From Pirellulales bacterium (GTDB taxonomy: Bacteria; Planctomycetota; Planctomycetia; Pirellulales; S012-138), in contig JALCBR010000021.1 of NCBI GenBank assembly GCA_028066245.1, positions 1-52,833 of the forward strand: DNA of 52,833 bases, given 5' to 3'. How positions within the stretch are numbered: position 1 is the stretch's first letter; every line of letters starts with the position of its first letter. Below, one piece after another: positions 35,402 to 48,306 of this stretch. The notes beneath the pieces are model-generated. The model worked only from the letters and a program-made list of their open reading frames with translations. It was not told the DNA's origin and made no database searches. The translations under genes were made by a program, and so were the position numbers.

Positions 35402-37162
35402 GTGTCAAAGAAAACAAAGGCATCTAAAACCGGGCCGGACGAACGCCGGGTGGGCGCGCCACGTGAATTAGTTGAATCAGTCGTCATCGCGTTCGTGCTT
35501 GCTTTCCTGTTTCGCACGTTTGAAGCGGAAGCGTTTGTGATCCCTACCGGGTCAATGGCTAGCAGTTTAATGGGGGTTCACAAAGATGTGGAGTGCGAAG
35601 CCTGCGGGTTTCAATATCAGATTGGCGCCAGCCAAGAGGAAGACGCCAAAGACGGTTTGGCGGCTCGCCATCACATCATGAGTGGCCAAGAGCAGCGAAA
35701 AGTCTGGAGTGACGTCGCCGTGAACACGGGCGTGTGTCCCAATTGTCGCTTTCCCATGAAACTGCAGTTGCCCGATGGGAATCCAACGTTCCAGGGCGAT
35801 CGAATTCTGGTGTCTAAGTTTGCCTATCAGTTTGGCGAGCCCCGCCGTTGGGATGTGATCGTCTTTCGCTATCCCAACCAATCTTGGACGAACTACATCA
35901 AACGCCTGGTTGGATTGCCCGGCGAAACAATTGACATTCGCAATGGTGATATCTTTGTTAAACCGCCTGACGGCGATCAGTACACGATTGCGCGCAAGCC
36001 GACAGACAAACTCATGGCCATGGCACGGATTGTCCATGACACCAATTTTGTCCCCATGGTTAATCCCGGCAAGTCAATCTACGACCTCGGCTGGCCCGCT
36101 CGTTGGCAAGCGGCGCCGGACTGGCTGGAGTTATCGAAGAAATACCCGGAGAATCCGCTTGCGGGTTGGGGAGAGCCCAGCTTGGAGAGCGGGCAGTTCC
36201 AGCCTGCGACGGATTTCAAATCTTATGCGACTGACGGCACCTCAAAAGAAATGGCTTGGCTGCGGTATCGGCATATCACGCCGTCTGAAGGTGATTGGAA
36301 TGCCATGCTCAAAGATCAGCCACAGACGCAGAGTGCCAATGCGCTAACCGACCGCATCGATGATTTCTTGCCATACAATGCGGGCAAACCCAATGTCTAC
36401 GTTGACGGTCTCGGCCTAAAGTTGGTCGTCAGACCAGCGCCAAAAGTGGAGGAGCATTGGGTTGGCGATCTTATCCTTGAAGCATCGCTGGATATCCAAG
36501 ATAGCTCTGGTGAGATCATGCTAGAGCTTGTGGAGGCAGGCTACTTCTTTCGCTGCGTCATCGATGTCCAGTCGGGCAATGCGGAACTCTCAATTGAGAG
36601 CTCGTCCTCGACGGAACGTTCCGGTGAAGTCCTGTTCGATGCTTCCAGCGACGGTGACCCATTAGCATTTGCCAAAGCACAAACACCAGTCAAAGGCGCT
36701 GGGAAATATCAGGTTCGTTTCGCTAATGTTGATGACGAGTTGCGGCTTTGGATCAGTCAAACGGATGCTTGGACCGAGCCCGACCCGGTTGTCTTTGACA
36801 GTCCCACGACCTACTCACCCTTGCCGATGAAAGCGGTTGCGGACCCGAGCACTGCCGCCGATGATTCACCGGTAGGCGTGGGCGCCAGGGAAGTCGCTCT
36901 CTCTGCATCACGTCTTCGGATCTTGCGTGACATCTATTACACGCAGCCTAAGAGCTCTGAAGCAAAATATGTGGCCAATGTCGCCATTCCACCTGGCAAG
37001 CTGTTTGCGATGGGCGATAATTCTGATCGGAGCAAAGACAGTCGCTTTTTTGGCTTCGTTGATATCGAGCGAGAATTGATCGGCAAAGCCCTTTACGTCT
37101 ATTGGCCACACGCTTGGAAGACTGTCTGGCCGAATTTTGAACGGATGAGCTTCGTCCGCTGA
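35402..37162 (+). CDS. lepB: Signal peptidase I with zinc-ribbon and large insertion
   Basis: Membrane serine protease that removes signal peptides. It has 586 residues, far above the usual 200-330, from GTG at 35402. One N-terminal helix (ESVVIAFVLAFLFRTF) is followed by the catalytic Ser51 in IPTGSMASSL. Immediately after comes a zinc-ribbon-like insert with C65/C68 (CEAC) and C112/C115 (CPNC). The catalytic Lys167 is in NYIKRLVGLPGE, after GDRILVSKFAY. A 370-residue insert follows; its middle is beta-rich (ILEASLDIQDSSGEIMLELV, YQVRFANVDDELRLWIS). The last conserved box, MGDNSDRSKDSRFFG, is near 538-551. Activity should be retained because both catalytic residues are present. The next gene, lptB, is 48 nt away on the same strand. 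Confidence 0.93.
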   Translation: MSKKTKASKTGPDERRVGAPRELVESVVIAFVLAFLFRTFEAEAFVIPTGSMASSLMGVHKDVECEACGFQYQIGASQEEDAKDGLAARHHIMSGQEQRKVWSDVAVNTGVCPNCRFPMKLQLPDGNPTFQGDRILVSKFAYQFGEPRRWDVIVFRYPNQSWTNYIKRLVGLPGETIDIRNGDIFVKPPDGDQYTIARKPTDKLMAMARIVHDTNFVPMVNPGKSIYDLGWPARWQAAPDWLELSKKYPENPLAGWGEPSLESGQFQPATDFKSYATDGTSKEMAWLRYRHITPSEGDWNAMLKDQPQTQSANALTDRIDDFLPYNAGKPNVYVDGLGLKLVVRPAPKVEEHWVGDLILEASLDIQDSSGEIMLELVEAGYFFRCVIDVQSGNAELSIESSSSTERSGEVLFDASSDGDPLAFAKAQTPVKGAGKYQVRFANVDDELRLWISQTDAWTEPDPVVFDSPTTYSPLPMKAVADPSTAADDSPVGVGAREVALSASRLRILRDIYYTQPKSSEAKYVANVAIPPGKLFAMGDNSDRSKDSRFFGFVDIERELIGKALYVYWPHAWKTVWPNFERMSFVR

Positions 37163-38496: not shown

Positions 38497-39534
38497 ATGC
38501 CCCACCAACATGCTGCAAGGAGCCAAGTCGGGCGACTGATTCCGTCCGAGGATGTCCGCTTTGAATCACCTCCAGTGATCCACCAAGGTACAACGCTTGG
38601 TGAAATACGCGTTGCGATCGAGAACCATCACTACATCCTTGCCGCCAATGATCTTGGGCAAATCGTGGGGATCGTTTCCTGTCAACGGATGTTGGAGCAC
38701 CTGGAATCCAAGCATGACCGAGAGCGGGGGCGCTGGGAGTCAATGTATCTTGGCGCCTTTGTTAGCGCTGAGGTGGGCGCCGGTGATCGTCCGGTTGGTC
38801 AAGCCTTTCGGGAGGGAATCGAGTGCATCACGGTCATGGAAAATGACTCGATTGTTGCGATCGCCGCAGAGAACGATGTTTTCTTGAGCTTGCAGTGGAT
38901 GGAGCCAACGTTGGCGGCGGCGAGATGCGATCCTTTGACGGGATTAATGAACCGGCTGGGTTATGAGCGCCGCTTAGCGGAGGAGTGGGCTCGCGCTGCG
39001 CGCACTGGCGTGTCCATTGGCGTCATCGTCCTTGATCTTGACGATTTCAAGACCATCAATGATCGCCACGGCCATTTGGCAGGCGACCAAGTGCTTCGTA
39101 AGGTGGGACACATCTTGGAGAAAACACTGCGCTCTTATGACGTCGTGGCACGGTACGGTGGCGACGAATTCGTCGCTCTCTGCTTGGACTGCCAGCCACG
39201 CGACATCGAAATCCCAATCACGCGCTTCCAAGAGACGCTCTCTGCCTCGACCATCAAATACGGCGAGCAGGAACTGCACGTCACCGCTTCAATTGGCGCT
39301 GCGGTACGGCACGATGAGTTCTATACATCGACGCCCTCTGAACTATTCGCCGCCGCAGATGAGTGCGTTTATCAATCCAAACGAGCGGGCACTGGTGCGC
39401 GCGTGATCGAATTCTCAACAGATGGCGATGAGATGATCACCGCCGTTGGTGTTCAAGGCGAAGAATCCGCCAGGCGCATGCCATCGACAGTCTCTGTTGC
39501 AGGCGATGCACGAGATGTGGGAGGACAGTCATGA
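38497..39534 (+). CDS. Diguanylate cyclase with N-terminal CBS-like pair
   Basis: Soluble protein of about 345 residues; ATG at 38497 is used (TTG 38482 is an alternative). The N-terminal 125 residues look like a CBS pair (TTLGEIRVAIENHHYILAAN then QIVGIVSCQRML, and a second REGIECITVMENDSIVAIA). Residues about 140-310 form a GGDEF domain beginning DPLTGLMNRLGYER. The active loop is YGGDEF (G221-F225) and the RxxD inhibitory site is R212-D215, five residues upstream, so both synthesis of cyclic di-GMP and feedback inhibition look intact. A polar tail follows. No membrane helix. CBS domains suggest control by adenine nucleotides. First gene of the four-gene operon; its stop overlaps the next ATG. 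Confidence 0.88.
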   Translation: MPHQHAARSQVGRLIPSEDVRFESPPVIHQGTTLGEIRVAIENHHYILAANDLGQIVGIVSCQRMLEHLESKHDRERGRWESMYLGAFVSAEVGAGDRPVGQAFREGIECITVMENDSIVAIAAENDVFLSLQWMEPTLAAARCDPLTGLMNRLGYERRLAEEWARAARTGVSIGVIVLDLDDFKTINDRHGHLAGDQVLRKVGHILEKTLRSYDVVARYGGDEFVALCLDCQPRDIEIPITRFQETLSASTIKYGEQELHVTASIGAAVRHDEFYTSTPSELFAAADECVYQSKRAGTGARVIEFSTDGDEMITAVGVQGEESARRMPSTVSVAGDARDVGGQS

Positions 39535-40784
39535 AGGCTCGACATGCCCAGTCGGAAGTTGACTGCCGTACTGATCTTGACCAAGATCATGTTCAGGATC
39601 AAACGGCGTCTGTCGAGGTTGGCCGAGCGAGCCGTCCTCAAGGCGATGCATCACCCCCACTCAGGGAAGTGGCTGGCACGACCGCGTCAGCATCATGGCT
39701 TCTGACCGGTCAATCACACGAAAACGCGTCCACGCAAAGTGTCACCATTAAGCACGATCGGTTTTCCGTCGGCCGGCACCAAGAGAATGATCTGTGCATC
39801 AACAACCAGAGCGTTTCCGGCAAGCATGCAGAGTTTGTGTTCTCGGGAGGGGAGATCTATGTCCGTGACCTGGGCAGTACAAATGGCACGCTGCTTAACG
39901 GCCATATGCTGCGCACGCTGACAAAACTCCGCGACGGCGACATCTTGCACTTTGGCGGCGCGATGTTCACGCTGCAGTGCCGTATGGGCAGGGTACCGTC
40001 GCAAACGGTTGCCACTTCGACAACGGAAGAGGCCATCGCGCAAGTTCAGTTTTCCAAACTGATCACGAAGCCGGCAATTGAGCCGTTCTATCAACCGATT
40101 GTGCGGATGAGCGATGATGTTCGCGTTGGCTATGAAGTTCTCTCGCGCAGCCGGCTTGTTGGGCTTGAAACTCCCGCCAAGATGTTCCGCATTGCTGCGC
40201 AGCGTACGTCCGAGGCGGAACTCAGCACAGTCTGTCGATCAGAAGCGTTGCGATCCCTGCCAAAGCTGGGAAGCGCCATGGAATACTACTTGAATACTCA
40301 CCCAAAAGAGATTGGGAAGCCGGAACTGCTCGCTTCGTTGACACAACTGCGCGAGCAATTTCCTGGGTACTCATGCGTGTTGGAGGTTCATGAATCAGCG
40401 ATTGCTTCCATAGACGATCTGCGCGAACTGCGGCGAGGCTTGACGGACTTGCAAATGGGACTCGCGTACGACGACTTTGGCTCTGGACAGGCGAGGCTGG
40501 CCGAACTCGCGGAAGTTCCGCCGGATGTCGTGAAGTTTGATATCAAGCTCATTCGCAGTTTAGATACCGCTTCGTCAAATCGGCTCGCAACGCTGGAAGC
40601 CTTGGTGCGAATGGTCACTGACCTTGGCGTCATCCCGTTAGCCGAAGGTGTGGAAACACAGTCAGTCGCTGAGATCTGCCAACAAGTTGGATTCCTCTAC
40701 GCGCAAGGCTTTCTGTTTGGAAAACCCGCTCCTGCAGCACACTGGATTAGCTCTTCCGACTCGGCATCCACGACATCGCGTTGA
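39531..40784 (+). CDS. FHA domain fused to EAL phosphodiesterase domain
   Basis: Soluble protein of 417 residues. FHA domain at about 55-155 has the phosphothreonine-binding pattern SVGRHQENDLCI, SVSGKHAEF and LGSTNGTLLNG. EAL domain at about 178-410 has metal and catalytic residues in place: E202 (EVLSR in place of EALxR), Asn in LNTHP, Glu in LEVHES, D314/D315 (DDFGSG), K335 (VKFD), E372 (AEGVE) and Gln in YAQGFLFGKP. It should therefore be able to cut cyclic di-GMP. The FHA may dock on targets of the downstream kinase; that link is inferred. ATG overlaps the GGDEF stop by ATGA; the stop is 12 nt before the ATPase gene. Confidence 0.9.
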   Translation: MKARHAQSEVDCRTDLDQDHVQDQTASVEVGRASRPQGDASPPLREVAGTTASASWLLTGQSHENASTQSVTIKHDRFSVGRHQENDLCINNQSVSGKHAEFVFSGGEIYVRDLGSTNGTLLNGHMLRTLTKLRDGDILHFGGAMFTLQCRMGRVPSQTVATSTTEEAIAQVQFSKLITKPAIEPFYQPIVRMSDDVRVGYEVLSRSRLVGLETPAKMFRIAAQRTSEAELSTVCRSEALRSLPKLGSAMEYYLNTHPKEIGKPELLASLTQLREQFPGYSCVLEVHESAIASIDDLRELRRGLTDLQMGLAYDDFGSGQARLAELAEVPPDVVKFDIKLIRSLDTASSNRLATLEALVRMVTDLGVIPLAEGVETQSVAEICQQVGFLYAQGFLFGKPAPAAHWISSSDSASTTSR

Positions 40785-40788
40785 GGAG
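40783..40788 (+). promoter_or_regulatory. Shine-Dalgarno overlapping the FHA-EAL stop codon
   Basis: GAGGAG begins inside the TGA of the FHA-EAL gene and sits eight bases before the ATPase ATG at 40797, supporting coupled translation. Confidence 0.55.
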
Positions 40789-40796
40789 CCCCACAC

Positions 40797-42182
40797 ATGA
40801 TTTCGACTCCCGATGCCAGTAGTTCAGAAGCGTCGCTGCTCTCGGCGTTGCTTTCCGGCGAGCGATATTGGCCGACTGAGCCACAGTCAATCGCGGAATT
40901 GGGGCTCTCCGAGCCGTTTCTTGATAGCTTGATCTGTAAGCTGCTTTTGACCAATGGTGACACTAGCGGGCGCAGCATGACTGCGAACGCCTGCATCCCC
41001 TTCTCGATTGTCGAAGAGACGTTAAGCCGGCTGCGGTCCCGACGCTTGGTGACACATACCGGCGCAGGTCAGTTGAATGACTACGTGTACACGCTCACGG
41101 ATGAGGGGCGGTCTCGTGCTCGCATATTTTATCAGGAGTGTGCGTACGTTGGCCCGGCGCCAGTCCCCTTGTTGGATTATGTGATTTCCGTCGAAGCGCA
41201 GGCAATCGGCGAAGAAGCTATCCGCCGCGCGGATCTTACCGATGCGTTTCACGATATCTTCGTTACTCAGGAGATGTTGGACTTGCTGGGTCCAGCGGTT
41301 AACTCCGCCAGCGGAATGTTTCTCTACGGTGCTCCGGGAAATGGAAAGTCAACGCTTGCCCATCGCATCACGGCATGTTTCGGACAATCGATTTGGTTGC
41401 CACACGCTGTGATTGACGGCCGCGAAATCATCACCGTCTTCGATCCCGCATACCACCACCAGTCCGCCAGCACGGCTGGGGCGACGGCGGGTGGTGAGTT
41501 CGACAAGCGTTGGATTCGCGTCCGTCGACCGACGGTCGTGGTCGGTGGTGAAATGACCATGGACAACCTGGAGATCCGGCGCGATCCGGTTTCGCAGATT
41601 AGCGAAGCTCCGCTGCAAATGAAAAGCAACTGCGGCTGTTTGCTGATCGATGACTTTGGCCGCCAACGTGTGGAACCTGCGGAACTTTTGAACCGTTGGA
41701 TTATTCCGTTGGAGAACCGTCATGACTTCCTGACATTGTCCACGGGAAAGAAGATCAAAGTTCCGTTTGAGCAATTGATCATCTTCTCCACCAACCTCGA
41801 TCCAGCAGAACTCGTTGACGAAGCCTTCTTGCGGCGGATTCCTTATCGCATTGAAGTCATGGACCCCGGTGAAGATGAGTTTCACAGTCTCTTTCAGATT
41901 GCCGCTTCTCAGACAGGCTGCGAGTACGATCCGGATGTCGTCAACTACATCCTGGAGCAACACTATCAACCGCAAGGTCGCCCCGTCAGGAGATGCCACG
42001 CCCGTGATCTGTTGCTTCAATTGCGAAACTACTGCACCTACAACGACTTGGCTTTTGAAATGCGGCAAGACTACTTCGACCGCGTAGCTGACGGCTTTTT
42101 TACTCGAGATTTCCAGCACGAAGATGCCCCGATGGATCGACTGCAACAGCCTGGCATGATCGGAGGTGCTTGTGGGGACTGA
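40797..42182 (+). CDS. AAA-type ATPase with winged-helix-like N-terminus
   Basis: Soluble ATPase of 461 residues. The N-terminal 110 residues resemble a winged helix (VEETLSRLRSRRLVTHTGAG then YVYTLTDEGRSRARIF). The AAA core has Walker A GAPGNGKST (178-186), Walker B CLLIDDFG with D285/D286, sensor-1-like LIIFSTNLDP and a following arginine-containing FLRRIPYRIEV. The remaining C-terminal 120 residues are mainly helical. I do not recognise a named family beyond AAA. It is translated from a GAGGAG site over the previous stop and overlaps the next gene by 11 nt, so stoichiometric production with the kinase-tubulin protein is likely. It may remodel that polymer-type GTPase; this is a guess from context. 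Confidence 0.82.
   Translation: MISTPDASSSEASLLSALLSGERYWPTEPQSIAELGLSEPFLDSLICKLLLTNGDTSGRSMTANACIPFSIVEETLSRLRSRRLVTHTGAGQLNDYVYTLTDEGRSRARIFYQECAYVGPAPVPLLDYVISVEAQAIGEEAIRRADLTDAFHDIFVTQEMLDLLGPAVNSASGMFLYGAPGNGKSTLAHRITACFGQSIWLPHAVIDGREIITVFDPAYHHQSASTAGATAGGEFDKRWIRVRRPTVVVGGEMTMDNLEIRRDPVSQISEAPLQMKSNCGCLLIDDFGRQRVEPAELLNRWIIPLENRHDFLTLSTGKKIKVPFEQLIIFSTNLDPAELVDEAFLRRIPYRIEVMDPGEDEFHSLFQIAASQTGCEYDPDVVNYILEQHYQPQGRPVRRCHARDLLLQLRNYCTYNDLAFEMRQDYFDRVADGFFTRDFQHEDAPMDRLQQPGMIGGACGD
42162..42166 (+). promoter_or_regulatory. Shine-Dalgarno that decides the kinase-tubulin start
   Basis: GGAGG five bases before the GTG at 42172. It lies inside the ATPase gene and favours this GTG over the GTG at 42166, which overlaps the site. 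Confidence 0.6.
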
Positions 42183-45100
42183 GGAAAAAATCGGTCAAAC
42201 ATCCGTCCTGTCTGATGCACCAGCTCAAGTCTATGGCGATGTGCCATCGCATGTTGCGGGATACGACTTGGTTGAACGCATTGGGGCTGGCGGCTATGGG
42301 GAAGTGTGGAGAGCCGTGGGGCCTGGCGGGCTATCCAAGGCCGTCAAGATTTTGTATGGCCGTCAAGATGGGCAACAAGCGGAACTCGAATTGAAGTCTT
42401 TGGAGAGGGTGCGCGAACTACGCCATCCTTTTCTGCTGAACATCGAACGTATTGAAGTCAATGATGGCCGTTTGATCGTCGTTTCTGAACTTGCTGACCT
42501 GTGCATGGAGAAACGTTTTGAGCAAGCGGCACGCGATGGACTCCGTGGAATTCCACGCGACGAGTTGCTGGGATACTTACGGGACGCGGCGGACGCGCTC
42601 GACTTCATGGTCGACCAAGGCGGGTTACAGCATTTAGACATCAAGCCTGGCAACTTGATGCTGCTGGGCGACCACGCAAAAGTGGGGGATTTCGGACTGA
42701 CGAAAGACATCTCCACACGGGGCGTCTCGCTCATGGCGGGTTTTACGCCGCTGTATTCCTCGCCGGAGATTTTCGAGGGGCAACCGAGCAATCGAAGCGA
42801 TCAATACAGCTTGGCGATCGTCTACCAGACGATGTTGACGGGACAGCCGCCATTTGCCGGTCGCACTGCCGCGCAACTCACAGCACAGCACTTGAGTAGC
42901 AAGCCGGATCTGACTCCCTTGCAGCCGGCGGATCGCCCCGTGATCGCCCGCGCGCTATCCAAAAACCCACAAGCCCGATTCGAGAATTGTCGACAGTTTG
43001 TTCAAGCACTGAGCCAACGGAAAGGCTCCAACTCAAGCGCTGCAACACGTCAAACGGTCTCTGAATACACGATACTGTCATCCAACATCAAATGCACGCC
43101 TGTTGTCAATCAAGAGGCAATCGTCGCGAGTGCGGATTCACCTCGGCCGGTTGTGACACCGATCTCACCCACGCCGGAGAGTCGGTTGGAATTGAGCTAC
43201 AGGCCGACGATTTTCATTGCCGTTGGGGGAATGGCGGGCCGCATCCTCCATCTCCTCAAGCAGCGCTTGCAAAAAGCCTTCGGGCCAGCCTCCTTGCCAT
43301 CATTCGCCATGGCGTATTTGGATACAGACAAGAATGCGCTGGCGGATGTGTGTGCTGAGAATGTCGAGCACGGGCTGGTCGAGAATGAGCTTTTCCATTT
43401 CCCGCTACGCAGTTTGCAGGACTTTCGGTCAGCCGGATTCCGTGCGTTGGACTGGTTGAGCCGGCGTTGGCTGTACAACATTCCCAAGACCGGCCAGGTG
43501 GAGGGGATACGCCCACTGGGTCGACTGGCGTTGGTTGATCAACAAGACCGTGTGCGCCCGTTCTTGACCGATCTTGTCCGTCAAGCAACTTCTGAACCCG
43601 CGGTTGCGGCCACGAGCAAAGCCACCAGCCTGGAAATCACAACGGAGCCTCCTGACATATTTGTCATCGGATCGACCACTGGCGGCACCGGCAGTGGCGC
43701 TGTCCTTGATATTGGATACCTTGCCAAGGAGATCTGCACGGAGCTGAGGTTTGAGCAATCGCGCATCAATGGAATCCTCTTGCACGCGTCCGGTGCTGTT
43801 CGTGGTAGTGCAGATGTTCAAGAAGCAGGAACAATTTCCCTGCTGCGTGAGCTCCAGCACTACTGCACGCCTGGAGCTGGCGGTGCGAGAGGACTTACTG
43901 CCAATCAGGCGGTGGATCAAGCTGGACCGTTTGATCACACCTATACCGTTCATCTCGGCGACGGGCTCAATGAACGAGAGCAGCCGACTCGTTTAGCGGA
44001 TATTGTCGACTACATGTTTATCAACGTCGCAACTCCCAACCGTGCTTACTTTGACAGTTGGCGCAACCAAAGCAGCGGAGAGGCGGCGGGGTCTGCGACG
44101 GCGATCCGTAGTTTTGGCAGCGCTTCTATTGCCGAAGAAGAACTTCACCATGCGCAAAAGCAGGCGGTCTCGCTTTGCCAGGCATTAACGAACGCGTGGG
44201 CGAATTCAGCATGCACAGCGAACGATGAGGAATTCGAGCAAGGTGCCTTGCGTAACAATGCCCAATCCTTGTTGGCTGAGTTGACGCTTTCTGGCGATCA
44301 ATTGAGAAAAACGGTGACGGAAATTCTCGCCGGCGATGCAGGAGAAGTGCTCACAAGCTGTGCCCGCAGCCAATGTGAATTGATCCTTGCCCAACTGGAA
44401 CCCCAGGGATCTTTCACGAACTCCACTCTCTCAAAAATCACCAACGAATTGCTGCAACAGTCTGGAAAGGCCAACAGTGAAGAAGACAAGTCCCTCCTAG
44501 CGATGGCACAATGTGTCGTTGAAGAGTCCGCAACACCAATTGATGTTACCTTGGGCGATTTGCGCAAGCACGTTCTCGGTTTGGTCGATGGTTCACTTCG
44601 TTTTCGCGGTGCGGACGAAGCCATCAATGCGATGCTGGCCGACGTCAGTTCGACAGGAAAGCGCATGGCGCAATCGCTCACCACCATCGTTAACGATATC
44701 AAACAGACGTGCAGTTCGGTGACGAAAGATCGCGCGGAGCATCCCGCGTCGAGCGAAGAATGGAGGGATGGCGCAGTCCGTCAAGTCATTGGTCAACTCT
44801 GTCAGCAATGCTGCACTTACGCAATCTTTCATGCTGTGACGGATCGGATCGCAAAGACCCGCGAGCTACTGATGGAATTGCGGACGCAGACGGGCGTGTT
44901 CAAGGAAGGAGTTGCCCGAATCTCAAAAGCTTTCGTGTTGCCTGGCGAAAGCTCCGTCACCGTAACGCCCGCAGACATCCAAGAGTTTGACCGTGATTTG
45001 GCCTTGCGAGGGGAGTTTCGGCTTAGTGATCTGCGGGACAAGTCAGCGGAAAAGAACGCATGTGTGTTGCTCTTTGAGAGCGCGCTGACATTCTGCCGTT

Positions 45101-45438
45101 CAAAGATTGGTGCCTCAGGTGCACCAGATGGACAGCCGCCGAAGCAAGACCGATCTTTTCCCAAGTCAGCAACCCCGTTGTTAGCCAATGCTGGGGGCGG
45201 GCGGCGCATTCTTGCTCTTATCCCGAAATCGGCATCGATTGACCTTTGGAAAAAGAATCTAACCGAAACATTTGGCGACTGCGTGTCAGTTCGCCAGGTT
45301 CAGACGAATCGAGTGAACGTGTATTGTGAAATTGAGGGGATCGAGATCAGCAAGATCATCGATCAGCTTTTGCAGTTCCATCCACACATCGGCGAAATTG
45401 CGGATCGCATTCACACGCGAAATGATGTTCAGTGGTAG
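42172..45438 (+). CDS. Ser/Thr protein kinase fused to a tubulin-like GTPase domain
   Basis: Soluble protein of 1088 residues from GTG 42172, overlapping the ATPase gene by 11 nt. Residues about 30-285 are a protein kinase with glycine loop IGAGGYGEVW (about 36-45), Lys59 in KAVKIL, HLDIKPGNL with H154, D156, K158, N161 (HLD in place of HRD), DFG from D173 and a YSSPE segment. After a Ser/Thr-rich linker, a tubulin/FtsZ-like domain begins near 343 (RPTIFIAVGGMAGRIL) with the nucleotide-binding signature STTGGTGSGAV (GGTGSG at 504-509) and a FINVATPNR-type segment. The rest, to 1088, is mainly helical. This matches the bacterial tubulin_2-like family known in outline. No membrane segment. Last gene of the operon. 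Confidence 0.85.
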   Translation: MGTEEKIGQTSVLSDAPAQVYGDVPSHVAGYDLVERIGAGGYGEVWRAVGPGGLSKAVKILYGRQDGQQAELELKSLERVRELRHPFLLNIERIEVNDGRLIVVSELADLCMEKRFEQAARDGLRGIPRDELLGYLRDAADALDFMVDQGGLQHLDIKPGNLMLLGDHAKVGDFGLTKDISTRGVSLMAGFTPLYSSPEIFEGQPSNRSDQYSLAIVYQTMLTGQPPFAGRTAAQLTAQHLSSKPDLTPLQPADRPVIARALSKNPQARFENCRQFVQALSQRKGSNSSAATRQTVSEYTILSSNIKCTPVVNQEAIVASADSPRPVVTPISPTPESRLELSYRPTIFIAVGGMAGRILHLLKQRLQKAFGPASLPSFAMAYLDTDKNALADVCAENVEHGLVENELFHFPLRSLQDFRSAGFRALDWLSRRWLYNIPKTGQVEGIRPLGRLALVDQQDRVRPFLTDLVRQATSEPAVAATSKATSLEITTEPPDIFVIGSTTGGTGSGAVLDIGYLAKEICTELRFEQSRINGILLHASGAVRGSADVQEAGTISLLRELQHYCTPGAGGARGLTANQAVDQAGPFDHTYTVHLGDGLNEREQPTRLADIVDYMFINVATPNRAYFDSWRNQSSGEAAGSATAIRSFGSASIAEEELHHAQKQAVSLCQALTNAWANSACTANDEEFEQGALRNNAQSLLAELTLSGDQLRKTVTEILAGDAGEVLTSCARSQCELILAQLEPQGSFTNSTLSKITNELLQQSGKANSEEDKSLLAMAQCVVEESATPIDVTLGDLRKHVLGLVDGSLRFRGADEAINAMLADVSSTGKRMAQSLTTIVNDIKQTCSSVTKDRAEHPASSEEWRDGAVRQVIGQLCQQCCTYAIFHAVTDRIAKTRELLMELRTQTGVFKEGVARISKAFVLPGESSVTVTPADIQEFDRDLALRGEFRLSDLRDKSAEKNACVLLFESALTFCRSKIGASGAPDGQPPKQDRSFPKSATPLLANAGGGRRILALIPKSASIDLWKKNLTETFGDCVSVRQVQTNRVNVYCEIEGIEISKIIDQLLQFHPHIGEIADRIHTRNDVQW

Positions 45439-45604: not shown

Positions 45605-47629
45605 CTAGCGTCCGGACGGATCGGGCGCGCGAATCGGCGGCTCATCGACCTTGCGAAGCACAAACAAGATCTTTTGCCGTGCGATAGCTTCACCGGAGCT
45701 ATCTTGCCAGAGGTGCTGGTTGGTACGAAAGTTGGCGTCCTGCAATTCATCGAAAGCCACTGTTCCGGCAGCCCCATGAATCCGTGCTGAGTTTTTCTGG
45801 AATTCGAACAGCCATTGCTGAATCTGCACAGCGCTCAGCCGGTAGAAAAATGTTGGGTTGCCAGGTTGCGTGAAATCGGAAGGAGTTTCACCTCCGCGTC
45901 CGCCGCCGTCTACTGCCTCGTTCCTCTCTTGCGCCTGCGCCGTTCCTGCACCTGCCCGGTCATTGCTTGATTGATCTTTGCTCGCCTGGTGCGTTTCTTT
46001 ATCACCGCGATCACTCCTGACGGCTTTGTTGTTGTCGGCGTGATTTTTCACAGCATCCTGCTGGCGAGCCTGTCGTTCTCCAGTGTTTTGCTGGTTCGTC
46101 ACAGGCGGGTTCATGCCGCCGCCACCTATTCCCGCTGTTACTTGATCTTGAAATTCCACTGGCGGCTGAGTCGCGGTTTGCTGTTCATCAGATTGTGGAC
46201 GGGTGAAGTAGTAGGATTGAATCTGTTGGCCGAGTTGCGAGTACATCGCCGCCTCTGGCGGAGAGACGATGCCGTTACTGAGGACGCCTTCCAGCTCAGA
46301 GAATCGAACCCTGAACCTGTCGGCCGGATTTTGTGCCAAAGCTGTTCCACGGTGATCTCGATTCGATGGGTGCGACTGAAGTGCGCTCAGCAAATCATTG
46401 ATCTTTGCCGCTTCGGCCTCGACATAGACAAACTGAACCTCCGCTTCGGAGAGCCCGTCAAGGTTCTTGCGGGCGAGCTCTTCCGCGTTCTCAGTTCCCA
46501 GTCGGCCAAAACCTTCTGCGAGGTAGTCTTGCCGGCTGGTTCCGAGCATGGCTTCCGTTGGGATCTCGTGCTGCTTGTTCTGATCTCGATCGTCTTGCCT
46601 GCGATCTTCTCTGTGCTTGACTTCCCCCCGGCTCTGCATTTCCGCTTCAGATTCCTTTAGCTCCCCACCAATCCTGACATCACGACCGCGGCGTCTTAAT
46701 CCAGTACCCGCGATCACAGGTTCGTTTTCGAGCCCCTCAGCCCAGATGATTTGCTGCTGCTGGAGGAGCTGCCGAAAAGCCTCGCTTCGCCAGGCGGATT
46801 CAGCAACGTCCACATGCACAATCATCAAGCTTGGATTAACAGAGAGGTTTTCAAAGCCCATCGCGGGAAGATCGCCAGCAGCCTCCACGTGATCGCTTTC
46901 TTCATGAACTTTCGCTAAAGAGTCAGCCCCCATTTGCTCCCGGGATGAATCTTTGTCAGGTTGCATGGTTCGTGCGTTCCGGCCTCCTCTGTCGGAACGC
47001 TCAGGAAACTCAGACTGCGAAGCTCCCATGAGCCCCCGACTTCGACCAGCTACTGCATCGCCAAGGACCTCTGCTTCTACCGGCAAGTTCTTGATCCGCT
47101 GGTGAGCGTCTTCAAGGCCATCGTCGCCTTTGCGGTTGACAATCTCTCCCAGCTTGCCGGACTTTGTGTTGATTTCCAATTCCGAAACGCCTGAGAACCC
47201 TCCGGCCAAGTGCTGTCGAGCGAGATCTCGGTTCAACGGCTCATCAAGCTGAACAAACTCACGAGAGCGGCCGCCAAAGGGGCCAGCGACCATATACGTT
47301 ACTGCCGCCAGGAGCACGGCGACAGCTGCAGCAATATTCAACCACGATGCAGATCGCCAAATACGGCTTGGGCCGGCGTTGTAAGTGGCGATGGTTTCCG
47401 TCGACGAACTCGCAGGAGGCTGAATTTCTTGTAAGACTTGATGGGCAAGGTTCGCATTCATTTTTGCCGCCGGCAAAGCGCGCAGTGCCGAACCAAACTC
47501 GCGCAATTCTGCGCAAAGCTCTCGAGCCTGAGGATTTGAATCCAGCAAGGCTTCAACTTCGGCACGCTCTTCTGGCGACAGGTCGTCGTCGATGTACCGG
47601 CTGATCAATTCAGTGGAAAATTCTCGCAT
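45605..47629 (-). CDS. Large anti-sigma-factor-like membrane protein
   Basis: A 674-residue protein encoded after the ECF sigma gene. The N-terminal 70 residues (ISRYIDDDLSPEERAEVEAL and RELCAELREFGSALRALP) resemble anti-sigma domains, but the zinc-binding His/Cys set of ZAS domains is missing: only one Cys is visible. One helix follows near 93-112 (SWLNIAAAVAVLLAAVTYMV). The rest, about 550 residues, would lie outside the membrane. It includes a stretch rich in Gln, Asn, Arg, Asp and Lys (about 510-590) and a C-terminal ordered-looking segment (NPTFFYRLSAVQIQQWLFEF). ATG at 47629 starts the conserved domain. Regulation of the adjacent sigma is inferred from order. Confidence 0.7.
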   Translation of the reverse strand: MREFSTELISRYIDDDLSPEERAEVEALLDSNPQARELCAELREFGSALRALPAAKMNANLAHQVLQEIQPPASSSTETIATYNAGPSRIWRSASWLNIAAAVAVLLAAVTYMVAGPFGGRSREFVQLDEPLNRDLARQHLAGGFSGVSELEINTKSGKLGEIVNRKGDDGLEDAHQRIKNLPVEAEVLGDAVAGRSRGLMGASQSEFPERSDRGGRNARTMQPDKDSSREQMGADSLAKVHEESDHVEAAGDLPAMGFENLSVNPSLMIVHVDVAESAWRSEAFRQLLQQQQIIWAEGLENEPVIAGTGLRRRGRDVRIGGELKESEAEMQSRGEVKHREDRRQDDRDQNKQHEIPTEAMLGTSRQDYLAEGFGRLGTENAEELARKNLDGLSEAEVQFVYVEAEAAKINDLLSALQSHPSNRDHRGTALAQNPADRFRVRFSELEGVLSNGIVSPPEAAMYSQLGQQIQSYYFTRPQSDEQQTATQPPVEFQDQVTAGIGGGGMNPPVTNQQNTGERQARQQDAVKNHADNNKAVRSDRGDKETHQASKDQSSNDRAGAGTAQAQERNEAVDGGGRGGETPSDFTQPGNPTFFYRLSAVQIQQWLFEFQKNSARIHGAAGTVAFDELQDANFRTNQHLWQDSSGEAIARQKILFVLRKVDEPPIRAPDPSGR

Positions 47630-47715
47630 TGGCTTTCTGGCGCTCGCACCGGAGCACAATCACGCAAACTATTGATAATCAAAAGCCTGCTCAACAATAT
47701 CGGCATTCTCGCGTT

Positions 47716-47746
47716 CGCGATGACAGTCGTAGTGCGCGCGATGACA
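47716..47746. repeat. Two direct repeats 21 bp apart between sigma and anti-sigma genes
   Basis: CGCGATGACA occurs at 47716-47725 and again at 47737-47746, start to start 21 bp, which is two helical turns. It lies in the 128-base gap between the sigma and anti-sigma genes. This spacing is typical of a dimeric or tandem protein-binding site. No function is known. Confidence 0.4.
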
Positions 47747-47757
47747 ATTGCACACTC

Positions 47758-48306
47758 CTAATCTTCCTGCATGACCTCCTTGAGATGTTCGCGAAGGTCC
47801 ATCCGCGCGCGGTGAAGGCGACTGCGGACCGTGCCGATAGGCAGGTCCAACATCTCCGCAATCTCCTCGTACGAGCAATCCTCCATCTCCCGGAGGATCA
47901 ACACAGTGCGATGTTCTTCCGTTAGCGCTTCCAACGCCGTATTAAGCTGGGCAGCTCGCTCGGTGAGTTCCATGCGGTCGGGCACAAGAGCCGCGGCTGG
48001 CTCTGCGCCCATTTCATCTTTTCCGTGTTCTAACGATACCGAGGGGCGGCGTTTGCGACGCCTGCTGATCGAAACGTTGAACGCAATCCGATACAGCCAT
48101 GTGTAAAACGCCGAAGTGCCCTTGAACGTGCTGAGCTTGGTAAACGCTTGGACGAAGGCGTCCTGGACTACGTCTTGAGCTTCCTCAGGGCAGCGAACAA
48201 CATGCACGAGCGAATTAAACAGCCGGTCTTGGTACGCACGCACCAAGTCTCCAAAGGCGGCCGTATCGCCTGCCAAAGTGGCCTGAATCAGCTCAGCATC
48301 GTTCAC
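47758..48306 (-). CDS. ECF-type RNA polymerase sigma factor
   Basis: Sigma-70 family, extracytoplasmic function type, 182 residues from GTG at 48306. Region 2 is at about 10-90 (DVVQDAFVQAFTKLSTFKG and AFYTWLYRIAFNVSISR, with the region 2.4 helix) and region 4 at about 120-178 (LREMEDCSYEEIAEMLDLP then GTVRSRLHRARMDLREHL). The linker contains a short charged stretch. The downstream gene encodes a membrane protein with an anti-sigma-like N-terminus. A candidate ECF promoter (GGAACT, 16 nt, CGTC) lies just upstream, which suggests autoregulation. Confidence 0.93.
   Translation of the reverse strand: MNDAELIQATLAGDTAAFGDLVRAYQDRLFNSLVHVVRCPEEAQDVVQDAFVQAFTKLSTFKGTSAFYTWLYRIAFNVSISRRRKRRPSVSLEHGKDEMGAEPAAALVPDRMELTERAAQLNTALEALTEEHRTVLILREMEDCSYEEIAEMLDLPIGTVRSRLHRARMDLREHLKEVMQED

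Follow-up and report, generated by a model that had tools for sequence, protein, structure and literature searches.

What could hold enzymes of cyclic di-GMP (c-di-GMP) turnover, an ATPase and a kinase-bearing relative of tubulin together in one row of genes? The question is raised by a cluster in a Pirellulales bacterium (assembly GCA_028066245.1, contig JALCBR010000021.1, positions 1 to 52,833 of the forward strand; this whole stretch of 52,833 nucleotides is the window below). Four co-directional genes at 38497-45438 (+) encode a CBS-GGDEF protein, an FHA-EAL protein, a winged-helix AAA ATPase and a Ser/Thr kinase fused to an FtsZl1/Tubulin_2 domain, the kinase-tubulin protein (Table 1). 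The module is passed on as a unit and is specific to Pirellulales. In this order of budding bacteria without FtsZ, the kinase-tubulin protein is inherited together with the FHA-EAL protein and the AAA ATPase, which suggests that phosphorylation, c-di-GMP and a relative of tubulin are connected in a way not described before.

Conservation of the cluster in relatives, on which an earlier interpretation of the window made from its letters alone (the sequence-only reading) chiefly depended, is supported by several counts. Of 30 kinase-tubulin loci from genomes of the window's order, nearly all have FHA-EAL genes in their surroundings and most have AAA genes, in several gene orders and orientations. 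A second set of 80 named loci, obtained by a pattern search of GTDB contigs and sharing part of its genomes with the first, is labelled Planctomycetota in all but a few cases; the families recurring there are kinase-tubulin (80 loci), FHA-EAL (65), AAA (44) and GGDEF (27), the next family reaching 5, and the loci without FHA-EAL lie mostly on truncated contigs. The same families recur across 20 genera of the order, repeatedly rearranged but not separated. A sample drawn from across the phylum beyond this order yielded Tubulin_2 matches that were all distant.

Co-occurrence was scored in 58 related genomes, 25 of them positive and 33 negative with the tubulin profile. Cluster-type AAA genes (profile score of at least 726 bits) are present in 25/25 genomes with a kinase-tubulin gene and in 0/33 of the others, which hold AAA paralogues at 652 bits or less, or none. 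About ten cluster-type AAA copies in the positive genomes are unlinked to the kinase-tubulin gene, and thus the relation between the two is one of co-occurrence, beyond adjacency. Strong FHA-EAL matches are found in 24 of the 25 positive genomes, and a partial one in a single negative genome. The exact order diguanylate cyclase, FHA-EAL, AAA, kinase-tubulin is found again at loci L062 and L100, which cluster with the window in the kinase-tubulin, AAA and FHA-EAL trees; the tree distances of the three proteins correlate (r 0.82-0.89), as is partly expected from shared species history. Two anomalous contigs were encountered: the kinase-tubulin gene of L081 is of planctomycete type although the contig bears the label Candidatus Nealsonbacteria, most likely through mis-binning, and L075 has its AAA gene broken into two open reading frames by a frame break or stop (L075:4645-5978) in an otherwise intact class A cluster, reflecting an assembly error or decay.

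The loci fall into two classes, A and B, both of which are held by several genomes; the window cluster belongs to class A. All eight EAL catalytic residues are kept in 41 of the 42 distinct class A genes of the FHA-EAL alignment (L073 has seven of eight, and L103 is broken), whereas the 33 class B genes retain 0-5 of the eight. In nearly all class A loci the AAA gene immediately precedes the kinase-tubulin gene; the two are never adjacent in class B, where Pfam instead identifies a divergent REC-GGDEF-CBS-CBS gene lacking GG(D/E)EF in 30/30 loci. Conversely, the FHA binding residues G, R, S, H, N, G are kept in 76/78 rows across both classes, and the kinase pattern GGKEHDKNDFG in 41/43 class A and 44/47 class B rows. 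Together with the EAL residues of class A, these counts argue for selection on the module. In a quick FHA-EAL tree, whose root is not known, a branch supported at 99 separates class B from the rest, and 12 further FHA-EAL genes lying away from kinase-tubulin genes have all eight EAL residues intact. The simplest reading of these sequences would be an active FHA-EAL ancestor, followed by joint decay of EAL and GGDEF in the class B lineage. Since both c-di-GMP domains of class B are degenerate while FHA and kinase remain intact, the phospho-reading core is predicted to be universal and c-di-GMP turnover optional. The joint control by phosphorylation and c-di-GMP that the sequence-only reading had envisaged is therefore not general. 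Its inclusion of a GGDEF protein in the cluster applies to a frequent partner (27/80 loci) but not a constant one, which in class A adjoins the cluster only in the window's clade.

The tubulin-like part of the kinase-tubulin protein belongs to a family, FtsZl1, in whose members no T6-H7 or C-terminal elements could be recognised according to earlier reports (PMC2875224, PMC9871819). The window protein scores 88-91 bits against PF13809 (cut-off 27), and variants of its T1 and T4 loops occur across the kinase-tubulin family. An AlphaFold2 model of residues 347-1090 (predicted local distance difference test, pLDDT, 77; predicted template modelling score 0.61) follows the tubulin element order up to H9, continues with about 320 mostly helical residues and resumes with elements resembling S8-H10-S9-S10-H11, the element names being our own assignment. 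Structural comparison places it closest to CetZ proteins (Z 25-27 over 302-307 residues), in alignments that run from the model's first residues to its last; the top match has Z 26.7 over 305 residues with a root-mean-square deviation of 3.9. The tubulin fold supposed by the sequence-only reading is thus borne out by structure prediction. Moreover, short relatives of about 780-870 residues (L044, L047, L048) are without the helical stretch and keep the C-terminal segment, which fits the stretch being an insertion. The model suggests that T6-H7 and the C-terminal elements of FtsZl1 are present but split by this insertion, an arrangement not identified in the earlier FtsZl1 papers.

The FHA-EAL protein is the only EAL protein found in the window genome, which is 97.5% complete and encodes ten GGDEF, seven HD_5 (HD-GYP-like), two PilZ and one Tubulin_2 protein; no PF00091 FtsZ/tubulin match was found in it. 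The whole phylum Planctomycetota has been reported to lack FtsZ (PMC11032199). Directly after the FHA domain, within an otherwise variable linker, class A proteins carry a nearly invariant threonine, Thr159 in the window, which is a candidate phosphothreonine. Class B proteins have TQ[VIL][ML]-type motifs on both sides of FHA, the copy in the N-terminal tail being present in 19/33; the N-terminal tails of class A proteins, including the window's, have no conserved TQ-type motif. TQ motifs shared by the kinase linker and the FHA tails were considered as proof of the wiring and rejected, the enrichment being weak. At two loci (L149:3882-8078 and L156:6088-10185) a stand-alone active FHA-EAL gene adjoins a different Ser/Thr kinase with DUF5939, which at L149 also carries an adenylate/guanylate cyclase domain; this is a second pairing of a kinase with FHA-EAL, here with a class III cyclase.

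In the CBS-GGDEF protein the GG(D/E)EF active site and the RxxD I-site of a diguanylate cyclase are present, as they are in L062 and L100. Pfam found no CBS domain in the window protein; a profile of the N-terminal regions from the window, L062 and L100 retrieved mostly CBS-domain chains from the PDB (best E 1.8e-4), and one weak Pfam CBS match was obtained in L100. When the window region was compared with the class B CBS pairs profile to profile, no significant similarity emerged (probability 5%). By the PDB profile matches and the weak L100 match, the window cyclase appears to carry a divergent CBS pair.

The AAA protein is matched by Pfam weakly, over the P-loop only. Its aligned relatives share Walker A GAPGNGK[ST] (GAPGNGKST in the window), Walker B LLIDDFG, an STN sensor and an AFLRR arginine motif. 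In the AlphaFold2 prediction only the segment of residues 38-114 is usable (pLDDT about 80-89), with MarR/ArsR-like winged helix-turn-helix proteins as best structural matches; the ATPase core has a mean pLDDT of 52, probably because of a shallow, too-similar alignment. The proteobacterial relatives that were read (Rhizobium, Paraburkholderia) are 35-38% identical over about 84-90% of the length.

Several parts of this picture have precedents. Four planctomycete FtsZl1 members with an N-terminal kinase were reported in 2010 (Makarova and Koonin, PMC2875224; repeated in PMC9871819), and of the partner domains restricted to cytoplasmic kinases in planctomycetes the tubulin-like domain is the commonest (PMC11032199). 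A reviewer of the 2010 paper pointed to an EAL neighbour in Pirellula staleyi (Psta_0487), which the authors grouped with other gene contexts limited to few genomes, treated as not conserved and left aside (PMC2875224). The window protein resembles the FtsZl1/Tubulin_2 family (PF13809, PMC2875224) in having a tubulin-superfamily GTPase domain, a helical region and a C-terminal domain. In contrast to the published FtsZl1 operons, which mostly contain a vWA gene and often a GTPase (PMC2875224), the kinase-tubulin cluster has neither, and its partners are FHA-EAL, the winged-helix AAA protein and GGDEF; Pfam gave no vWA match in the four window genes, and no fifth recurrent family was found near the 80 loci.

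The closest analogues of the FHA-EAL protein are DgcB of Bdellovibrio, an FHA-GGDEF protein whose FHA domain binds a phosphothreonine in the protein's tail and thereby switches the enzyme, and a Sorangium protein that fuses kinase, tail, FHA and GGDEF (PMC6733907). Shared with them would be the gating of a c-di-GMP enzyme by its FHA domain through a phosphothreonine in a flanking segment, with an input from a kinase. Unlike these systems, the window enzyme is an EAL protein, of the type that destroys c-di-GMP, and the kinase domain sits in a second protein, joined to a tubulin domain; in addition, the conserved threonine of class A follows FHA, whereas in the DgcB type it precedes it. The sequence-only reading knew of no described system with this set of genes. 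The kinase-tubulin fusion was in fact already known from the three papers cited above, of 2010, 2023 and 2024; the conserved module, the class split and the AAA partner appear undescribed, as no account of the module, its FHA-EAL proteins or the two classes was found in the literature searched, mostly without subscription papers.

We propose, with a probability of about 0.5, that the cluster is a signalling module built around the kinase-FtsZl1 fusion, in which c-di-GMP would be hydrolysed locally, under control of the kinase, by an FHA-docked enzyme on a kinase-tubulin scaffold. The kinase would phosphorylate a threonine, most likely the conserved Thr159 beside FHA or else one or more sites within the kinase's linker. 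The FHA domain would read this phosphothreonine, and the EAL phosphodiesterase would be switched by it, docked on the kinase-tubulin assembly, or both. The tubulin part would provide a GTP-dependent scaffold, possibly a filament, with c-di-GMP being removed where the scaffold forms. In the window's clade the added CBS-controlled diguanylate cyclase would create a local make-and-break pair, and the AAA protein may remodel the assembly or couple it to a surface-structure or transcription target. Class B would employ the same phospho-FHA-tubulin core without c-di-GMP turnover. A more specific form of the proposal, in which these FtsZ-less bacteria build a phosphorylation-controlled, kinase-bearing tubulin-like filament where docked FHA-EAL clears c-di-GMP locally, is tentative, and we regard it as possible rather than probable.

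Several observations weigh against the proposal. The catalytic acidic residue (D/E) expected in T7 for GTPase activity in trans occupies the modelled position in 34/43 class A and 33/47 class B proteins and is not invariant, so that GTPase-driven polymerisation is unsure. The nearest sampled relatives of the window genome, four members of its own family (G001-G004), are without the kinase-tubulin gene; the module is thus dispensable, and either horizontal transfer or recurrent loss has left it patchily distributed. Enrichment of the TQ-type motif in the kinase-tubulin linker is only about 2.5-fold, and a minority of the proteins carry it. The seven HD_5 proteins of the window genome mean that EAL is not the sole possible c-di-GMP hydrolase. 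Finally, the cluster persists in class B after degeneration of both c-di-GMP domains.

The last observation leads to an alternative in which the conserved function would be a phosphorylation-controlled FHA/tubulin scaffold independent of c-di-GMP, with EAL and GGDEF acting mainly as protein-protein modules and class A catalysis as a side input. The class B loci, where FHA, kinase and gene linkage outlast the catalytic residues, speak for it. However, the near-perfect EAL residues of class A, to which the window belongs, and of the 12 unlinked FHA-EAL genes indicate strong selection for phosphodiesterase chemistry there, and we hold this alternative to be unlikely on the whole. The idea that the module controls adhesion structures at the cell surface, Tad/Flp-type pili or others, through its AAA protein seems distinctly improbable. 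It gains weight from the fact that c-di-GMP commonly controls pili and adhesion, and from AAA relatives of the same protein family on Rhizobium and Paraburkholderia plasmids, which sit within Tad/Flp pilus operons (L158, L159, L160). Two distant planctomycete copies also lie at tad loci, one with a full tad set (genome G049, L172:7235-14915) and one next to CpaF (G009, L168:6807-9475). On the other hand, most planctomycete paralogues of the cluster AAA lie away from tad genes, no tad homologue is found in the window, and the 80 kinase-tubulin loci have no adjoining tad genes except for one weak CpaF-like match in L073. Outside the kinase-tubulin clusters, the winged-helix AAA family may represent an unrecognised Tad-associated ATPase.

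We give very little credence to a role in phage defence or biological conflict, after the manner of kinase-based or GTPase-tubulin systems. Conflict systems containing tubulin have been described (Kaur et al. 2020, PMC7159879) and have in common with the cluster a tubulin-family protein in a signalling operon, but their GAP1-type GTPase, HSP70, vWA and FNIII parts do not recur around the 80 loci. PADLOC returned matches to PD-T4-6-type kinases and a weak IetA match, which cover only the generic kinase domain and the P-loop region, respectively, and the defence reading drawn from them was rejected. The congruent trees, the absence of variable effectors recurring beside the cluster and the housekeeping-type neighbours in the window also disagree with defence. 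A chance neighbourhood of unrelated regulators might be suspected in planctomycetes, which hold many kinases, FHA proteins and GGDEF proteins; this is refuted by the conservation described above, both by co-occurrence and by rearrangement across 20 genera without separation, and its likelihood is negligible.

The kinase-tubulin proteins, without an assigned role since 2010, are now given conserved partners and a testable split tubulin fold, and the role of FtsZl1 becomes directly testable in harmless, cultivated species, among which Lacipirellula limnantheis, Botrimarina hoheduenensis and Adhaeretor mobilis belong to class A. The two classes amount to a natural experiment, as class A keeps its c-di-GMP chemistry under strict selection and class B has lost both halves together. 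If the filament with docked FHA-EAL is real, a tubulin-family scaffold would serve as a platform for c-di-GMP signalling, and a duplicated sister system would have lost the messenger and kept the scaffold.

Table 1. Genes, domains and sites of the cluster, in window coordinates
Feature	Position	Strand	Remarks
CBS-GGDEF diguanylate cyclase	38497..39534	+	start ATG; intact GGDEF and I-site
CBS-like pair	about 38539-38910	+	predicted; three-sequence profile against PDB
GGDEF domain	38923-39393	+	RYGGDEF active site, I-site RSYD
FHA-EAL	39531..40784	+	4-nt overlap with CBS-GGDEF gene
FHA domain	about 39765-39956	+	G, R, S, H, N, G binding residues present
Thr159 of FHA-EAL	40005..40007	+	candidate phosphothreonine just after FHA
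EAL domain	40050-40727	+	8/8 catalytic and metal-binding residues
Winged-helix AAA ATPase	40797..42182	+	12-nt gap after FHA-EAL gene
Winged helix of AAA protein	about 40908-41138	+	residues 38-114; AlphaFold2 segment
Ser/Thr kinase fused to FtsZl1/Tubulin_2	42172..45438	+	11-nt overlap with AAA gene
Hanks-type kinase domain	42262..43008	+	VK lysine, HLD, DFG intact
Tubulin-like GTPase domain, through modelled H7-T7-H8-S7-H9	43204..44205	+	T1 VGGMAG, T4 GGTGSG
Helical insertion within tubulin C-terminal domain	44206..45168	+	about 320 residues; model
Rest of tubulin C-terminal domain (S8-H10-S9-S10-H11)	45169..45435	+	ends in conserved R-x-x-TRxDVxW

The layout in Table 1 agrees with the sequence-only reading in the direction of the four genes and in their overlaps and gap, all confirmed from the open reading frames, and the catalytic or binding motifs it had noted are seen in all four proteins (Pfam E-values: GGDEF 9.5e-41, EAL 1.1e-35, FHA 6.3e-20, Pkinase 1.1e-24, Tubulin_2 8.9e-25). 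The plausible terminator that it had placed after the cluster does not rise above chance: 9 terminator-like sites were found against 9.9 in shuffled sequence, and the region 3' of the cluster folds no better than shuffles (z -0.24). The CBS-GGDEF reading frame itself begins upstream of the ATG, at TTG 38482. For the kinase-tubulin gene the best start is GTG 42172, preceded by GGAGG at a distance of 5 nt, and the GTG upstream of it at 42166 is a possible alternative.

The genes neighbouring the cluster are of housekeeping type (signal peptidase, ABC ATPase, sigma factor). A signal peptidase I-like protein of 586 amino acids (35402-37162) matches Peptidase_S26 in three separate stretches and hence probably carries large insertions. 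Convergent with the kinase-tubulin gene, at 45605-48306 (-), lie a gene for an extracytoplasmic function (ECF)-type sigma factor and then one for a large zf-HC2 anti-sigma-like protein.

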